Below, in pieces: positions 26,749 through 26,884 of a stretch of DNA of 35,168 nucleotides (position 1 is its first letter; every line of letters starts with the position of its first letter). Source of the stretch: a virus; IMG/VR virus record IMGVR_UViG_3300032132_000024, positions 1-35,168 of that record, one strand, 5' to 3'. The position numbers and the translations under genes are program-made. The notes under the pieces were generated by a model, which was not told the DNA's origin, searched no databases, and saw only the letters and a program-made list of their open reading frames with translations.

Positions 26749-26884
26749 GTTTATTTTGCACGTATTCTCTAGGAAATACCGCTGTTTTCGTTTTTTCGTA
26801 AAATAGTTGTAGACACATTCTGCGGTCTGTCGTAATCTCTCCACCATGACAACGAACAACAACACGAACAACGGAGAAAAGAAC
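26749..26884 (+). promoter_or_regulatory. Rightward sigma70-like promoter with T-rich element and A/C-rich leader
   Basis: The T-rich element (26749-26779) is followed by TTTTCGTAAAATAGTTG. -35 TAGACA (26810-26815) and -10 TAATCT (26833-26838) are 17 bp apart. The predicted start (about 26845) coincides with ATG 26846. The leader reads in repeated AAC/GAAC units, then GGAG and AAAAGAACATG, so the true start is 26885. Nearly the same cassette recurs at 28.5 kb and, on the minus strand, at 13.06 kb. Confidence 0.7.

Follow-up and report, generated by a model that had tools for sequence, protein, structure and literature searches.

Start-associated sequences (SAS) have been described in two groups of actinophages. 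Cluster K mycobacteriophages carry 11–19 copies in the non-structural half of the genome, each consisting of an SD sequence with conserved flanks, and their role is unexplained (PMC3203893); the Microbacterium cluster EF phages represent a separate SAS case (PMC7302621). Among other described initiation signals, ACA motifs upstream of the SD sequence raise translation, and replacement of all four in dppA caused a more than 100-fold loss (PMC3879156). AUGs at the 5′ terminus of SD-led mRNAs bind 70S ribosomes, and downstream expression of ptrB needs the terminal AUG (PMC4965119).

The window analysed here covers an entire virus record, 35,168 bases long. Positions 1–127 and 35042–35168 are identical, and because of this 127-bp terminal repeat the window is very probably a complete phage genome. 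It also encodes primosomal, DnaB-like and DNA methyltransferase genes in addition to the following.

about 149–12,324, 16,838–22,008 and 32,815–35,168: structural genes
25,480–26,745: terminase gene
15032–15778: Erf-like protein

An A/C-rich leader recurs in this genome. As in the SAS phages, a conserved SD-containing repeat lies a few nucleotides before the ATG, at the ribosome-binding position of nine starts. It is found only ahead of small non-structural genes, is absent upstream of the head, tail, portal and terminase genes, and always has one orientation relative to its gene. Like SAS it is nearly phage-specific and conserved beyond 16S pairing, and SAS is sometimes accompanied by an extra upstream element. 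However, the leader core, GGAAC..AGAAC before the ATG, does not match the 13-bp SAS consensus, GGGATAGGAGCCC in cluster K or GGGAAAGGACCCC in cluster EF, and is unrelated to either. The upstream part reads as a T-free AAC tract running from the predicted transcript start, together with promoter-like blocks, where the extended form of SAS has inverted repeats (ESAS). Unlike those of the SAS phages, the proteins of the present phage have no close relatives in the collections searched. The leader is thus apparently an independent SAS-like case outside both SAS families, and its A/C tract suggests how SAS-type repeats could work.

The leader shares with the ACA/CA enhancers of yifK, dppA and gltI (PMC3879156) an unstructured ACA/CA-rich tract beside and upstream of the SD sequence, which would be expected to raise initiation, but in this phage a single, nearly unchanged block recurs at many genes and no sRNA partner was seen. 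As in 5′-uAUG mRNAs (PMC4965119), the predicted transcript opens at or near an AUG or GUG, followed by a short leader, an SD sequence and the main AUG of the downstream gene; the difference is that translation from the upstream AUG would continue in frame into the main gene, on transcripts whose starts are themselves predicted. Ribosome standby sites (PMC3936740) likewise provide a single-stranded landing area upstream; in contrast to them, there is no structured ribosome-binding site here that would need standby, leader and SD sequence both being open.

Leader copies and their common core

All nine leaders listed in the preliminary description are present ahead of their genes, and eight of the nine start coordinates are right; the ninth, given as 22222, is an ATG at 22224. 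Six of the starts lie on the + strand (22224, 26885, 28552, 29145, 27102 and 28896) and three on the − strand (16613, 12776 and 16411). Common to all is a 3′ core made up of an SD sequence, an A-rich spacer and AGAAC directly before the ATG. Six copies (22224, 26885, 28552 and 29145 on the + strand; 16613 and 12776 on the − strand) also possess a 5′ half of AAC/ACACGAAC repeats, AACAACACGAACNNC. The three leaders described as shorter versions (27102, 28896 and 16411) do exist, but what they have in common is mainly the 3′ core, with the consensus AAGGAAC/AAGGGAAC-NNAGAAC before the ATG. The placement of the 29145 and 12776 copies inside operons, and the overlap of the latter with the end of the previous gene, were correctly described. 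A tenth occurrence of the A/C block, absent from that description, lies inside the coding start at 13029 (−).

26846..26884, + strand: leader copy 1, ATGACAACGAACAACAACACGAACAACGGAGAAAAGAAC, start 26885; its first codon is an ATG in frame
22182..22223, + strand: leader copy, start 22224; in-frame ATG at 22182
28507..28551, + strand: leader copy, start 28552; ATGATG in frame, weaker core (AGGA, GAGAAC)
29115..29144, + strand: leader copy, start 29145; lies between genes, behind the TAA that ends the previous one, and lacks a start codon upstream
16614..16655, − strand: leader copy, start 16613; begins at 16655 with a GTG in frame
12777..12811, − strand: leader copy, start 12776; shares sequence with the 3′ end of the ORF before it, which is translated there in another frame (KEQQHEQRS*)
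27084..27101, + strand: 3′ core only, CCGAAGGGAACACAGAAC, start 27102
28878..28895, + strand: 3′ core only, CCGAAAGGAACACAGAAC, start 28896
16412..16432, − strand: 3′ core, AAAGGAACTAAGAAC, start 16411; contains the TAA at which the preceding gene stops
13002..13029, − strand: A/C block just after the start codon, ATGACAACGAACAACAACACGAACC..., without an SD sequence

The ATG at 13029 is the apparent only start of its gene and is a candidate leaderless start for the ORF ending at 12781.

The repeated A/C-rich leader is confirmed as real and above chance. The pattern AACAACACGAACAAC has 15 matches with up to three mismatches (shuffle mean 1.0, maximum 3) and AAGAACATG has 16 with up to one mismatch, compared with 6.0 in shuffles, counts that are not independent tests, as the copies are related by descent. 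A position matrix was built from the last 15 nt before the ATG and used to score the 1,068 ATGs in the window. The eight best sites scored 19.6–24.0 and 28552 scored 11.2, with 9.2 for the best of the 1,059 other ATGs. When each site was left out of its own matrix, the eight still stood clearly apart from the other ATGs and 28552 ranked 14th, so that the membership of 28552 rests on its 5′ half.

Base composition and spacing are equally constrained. T occupies three of the 210 nt in six 35-nt leaders, against about 41 expected, and the distance from the SD sequence to the ATG, counted in the AAGGAGG register, is 7 nt at seven copies, 6 nt at one and 8 nt at one; at other genes of the phage it is 3–13 nt. 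Opening energy is lower than at 25 other gene starts, both for the leader (p about 0.004) and for the start (p about 0.001), and the A/C bias extends into the first codons of the leader-bearing genes.

Promoter-like blocks and upstream in-frame starts

Start codons in frame with the main start are found 39–45 nt before it in four copies, as ATG at 26846, 28507 and 22182 and as GTG at 16655, each 0–5 nt from the predicted transcript start. The view of the leader as a 5′ untranslated region is too simple for these four copies, which open with an in-frame start codon. Promoter predictions had also been said to place the leader at the 5′ end of the mRNA. A generic sigma-70 scan of the leader sites gave no promoters beyond chance, and for this reason transcript starts at the leaders are treated here as predicted; in favour of the placement, two classes of promoter-like block end just before leaders.

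26800..26845, + strand: class A promoter-like block, AAAATAGTTGTAGACA-17 nt-TAATCT-7 nt-ATG, without support from the generic scan
28462..28506, + strand: class A promoter-like block, GAAATAGTTGTAGACA-17 nt-CATTCT-6 nt-ATG
13030..13074, − strand: class A promoter-like block, AAAATAGTTCTTGCCG-17 nt-CATTCT-6 nt-ATG
22149..22172, + strand: class B promoter-like block (sigma-54-like GG-N10-GC), GGTTGGCATGGCTAGTGCTTATAC
16664..16687, − strand: class B promoter-like block (sigma-54-like GG-N10-GC), GGTTGGCACGGCTAGTGCTTATGT

Class A blocks are composed of AAATAGTT, a −35-like hexamer, 17 nt and a CATTCT or TAATCT hexamer that ends 6–7 nt before the ATG. The arrangement AAATAGTT-N35-38-ATG has four matches in the window, three of them at class A blocks, compared with 0.03 per shuffle. 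The class B pattern GGTTGGCAYGGCTAGTGCTTAT occurred in its exact form only twice in our search; these blocks fit the sigma-54 GG-N10-GC rule, and transcription would begin 3–5 nt before the ATG or GTG. Sigma-54 control would be unusual for a phage. The class B pair is conserved and flanks the tail-gene cluster. A further block, TTTATTTTGCACGTATTCTCTAGGAAA, is located at 26750–26776 and 28412–28438, upstream of class A blocks, and at 16708–16734 in the divergent region near 16.7 kb.

The design may include initiation at a 5′-terminal AUG, or additional loading of ribosomes. The former is conceivable because the four start codons lie so close to the predicted transcript starts and the 13029 start lacks an SD sequence. 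Indels between leader copies preserve the reading frame, which is suggestive of upstream start use but not decisive, since the internal copies (29145 and 12776) keep phase without needing it; the pairing of upstream and downstream starts in frame could be inherited from one ancestral leader copy.

A probable translation-initiation element and its alternatives

The leader is probably a repeated, portable translation-initiation element of a single phage. Its repetition, spacing, T-depletion, openness, gene class and frame independence can be read directly from the genome. The 3′ part presents an SD sequence (GGAG or AAGGA) held 6–8 nt from the ATG by the A-rich spacer ending in AGAAC, while the T-free, unstructured AAC/ACACGAAC tract of the 5′ part would load 30S subunits, probably via protein S1, or 70S ribosomes, which would then settle on the SD sequence and the downstream ATG. 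At the promoter copies, transcription would begin at, or no more than 5 nt from, the in-frame ATG or GTG, and ribosomes on the 5′-terminal AUG would feed the main start or yield a minor, Asn-rich, N-extended form of the protein; the operon-internal copies would act as ordinary intergenic ribosome-binding sites. In this scheme we infer the transcript starts, the action of ribosomes and S1, strong translation, and initiation at the terminal AUG. The A/C half seems dispensable, as three of the nine copies lack it. At least once the element was copied along with its gene (22224/28896). The nine variants form a natural set for establishing what makes an initiation region strong.

In a more elaborate form of this scheme, the 5′ in-frame AUG or GUG and the AAC tract would together recruit 70S ribosomes that feed or double the SD start, with 13029 being purely leaderless. 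This two-start arrangement is doubtful; if it is true, a whole set of genes across the phage would each yield two N-terminal forms. In-frame 5′-terminal AUGs, if used, would provide several natural instances in which to test how ribosomes load at the ends of transcripts. Asn-rich N-terminal peptides, which had been named as a refutation of the leader's role, would if found indicate dual initiation, and a role in translation would survive them.

It is unlikely that the copies mainly mark seams of recombination or duplication, at which gene cassettes spread together with their ribosome-binding sites with the help of the Erf-like annealing protein, so that their similarity would stem from recent copying and not from function. 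The phage does encode such a protein (at 15032–15778), one promoter block is duplicated (26748/28410) and other intergenic blocks are repeated. Segments 22212–22354 and 28884–29026 form a paralogous cassette (73%), in which the 3′ half of the leader was duplicated jointly with its gene. Most of the downstream genes, however, show no evident kinship and yet keep the SD register and freedom from T, and the short copies retain exactly the part adjacent to the ATG.

We consider it quite unlikely that translation truly starts at the upstream ATG or GTG, which would make the Asn-rich stretch a coding N-terminal protein tag. Four promoter-proximal copies do have an in-frame ATG or GTG upstream with no intervening stop, and at 13029 the A/C block comes after the apparent start. 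However, the 12776 copy is read by the previous ORF in another frame, as its end, and the 29145 copy comes after a TAA and lacks an upstream start codon, so neither can encode a tag for its gene. Where the leader is readable, Asn is encoded by AAC at all 22 of its codons, compared with 72% in other genes, and T stands at no third position. No SD sequence was seen ahead of the upstream starts, and the downstream ATG is close to where the 22224 product, its 28896 paralogue and four homologues encoded by other phages begin. Judged from these sequence features, the leader is a nucleotide-level signal. Its description as a modular translation-initiation signal stands as the best reading, in view of the constant SD register, the open RNA, the frame independence and the homologue starts.

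The AAC repeats resemble A-R-N type Hfq contacts, which together with conservation beyond SD pairing would favour a cis site at which a phage or host regulator, such as an Hfq-like RNA-binding protein or an sRNA, switches the small genes jointly. GcvB silences ACA enhancers in enterics (PMC3879156), which also speaks for regulation of this kind, but we regard it as rather improbable: the open A/C tract would be enough without a factor, no candidate binding protein was identified, a search of the phage genome for a long antisense RNA to the leader found none, and complements to the leader elsewhere in the phage are scattered exact stretches of only about 11–12 nt.

Other genomes and other repeated blocks

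A search for the motif in other phages, proposed in the preliminary description, revealed no repeated leader use among the phages searched. Scans of IMG/VR with three leader patterns returned no match with a repeated leader, the matches being mostly coding apart from the one in L109 described below; the leader was repeated in none of 80 terminase-related loci, and an unbiased test for repeats linked to ribosome-binding sites found none comparable in 120 other phage loci. A repeat cluster in one locus (L026) was rejected as a collagen-like coding repeat. Short-query BLAST against phages and plasmids gave weak matches only (E of 0.09 or worse), and the leader had no match in Rfam. A/C-rich leaders in general occur at 0.031 per kb in other loci and 0.227 per kb here, about seven times rarer elsewhere. 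A modular translation-initiation element specific to this phage is the best explanation for the leader.

A genome scan for the leader gave matches that were mostly coding or due to chance. Two matches from Spirochaetaceae were rejected because they belong to a dispersed inverted repeat of a metagenome-assembled genome, unrelated to the leader and with arms CACGAACAACACGAAC and GTTCGTGTGGTTCGTG (L124, − strand, about 3585–3400; L125, − strand, about 3435–3290). Relatives of the terminase, methylase, portal and primosomal proteins are distant and come from mixed hosts, precluding host assignment, and queries of IMG/VR with the DnaB and portal proteins gave no relatives. One phage contig (L109, 2057–2092, − strand) carries a leader-like CGAACAACAACACGAACACGGGAGACAACACGA before an ATG, just after a terminator-like hairpin; this look-alike is a single copy, ahead of a downstream gene.

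Several other features of the window were noted. Genes 22224–22430 and 28896–29114 encode two paralogous DUF5763-like small proteins with homologues in four other phage loci. An intergenic block, TCACACGGGGG..GCGCATCC, is repeated between small genes at 27405–27432 and 28847–28874. A candidate structured non-coding RNA at 22722–22892 (+), with AUGAACGAACAACAAAC near its start and no match in Rfam, is predicted to adopt a multi-branched fold (−65 kcal/mol, z −2.25) closed by a U-rich, terminator-like tail. Similar intergenic blocks, ATCACACGC...AATAACGCGYCACAG...AGACCCC, are found at 22885–22935 (+) and about 12340–12395 (−).
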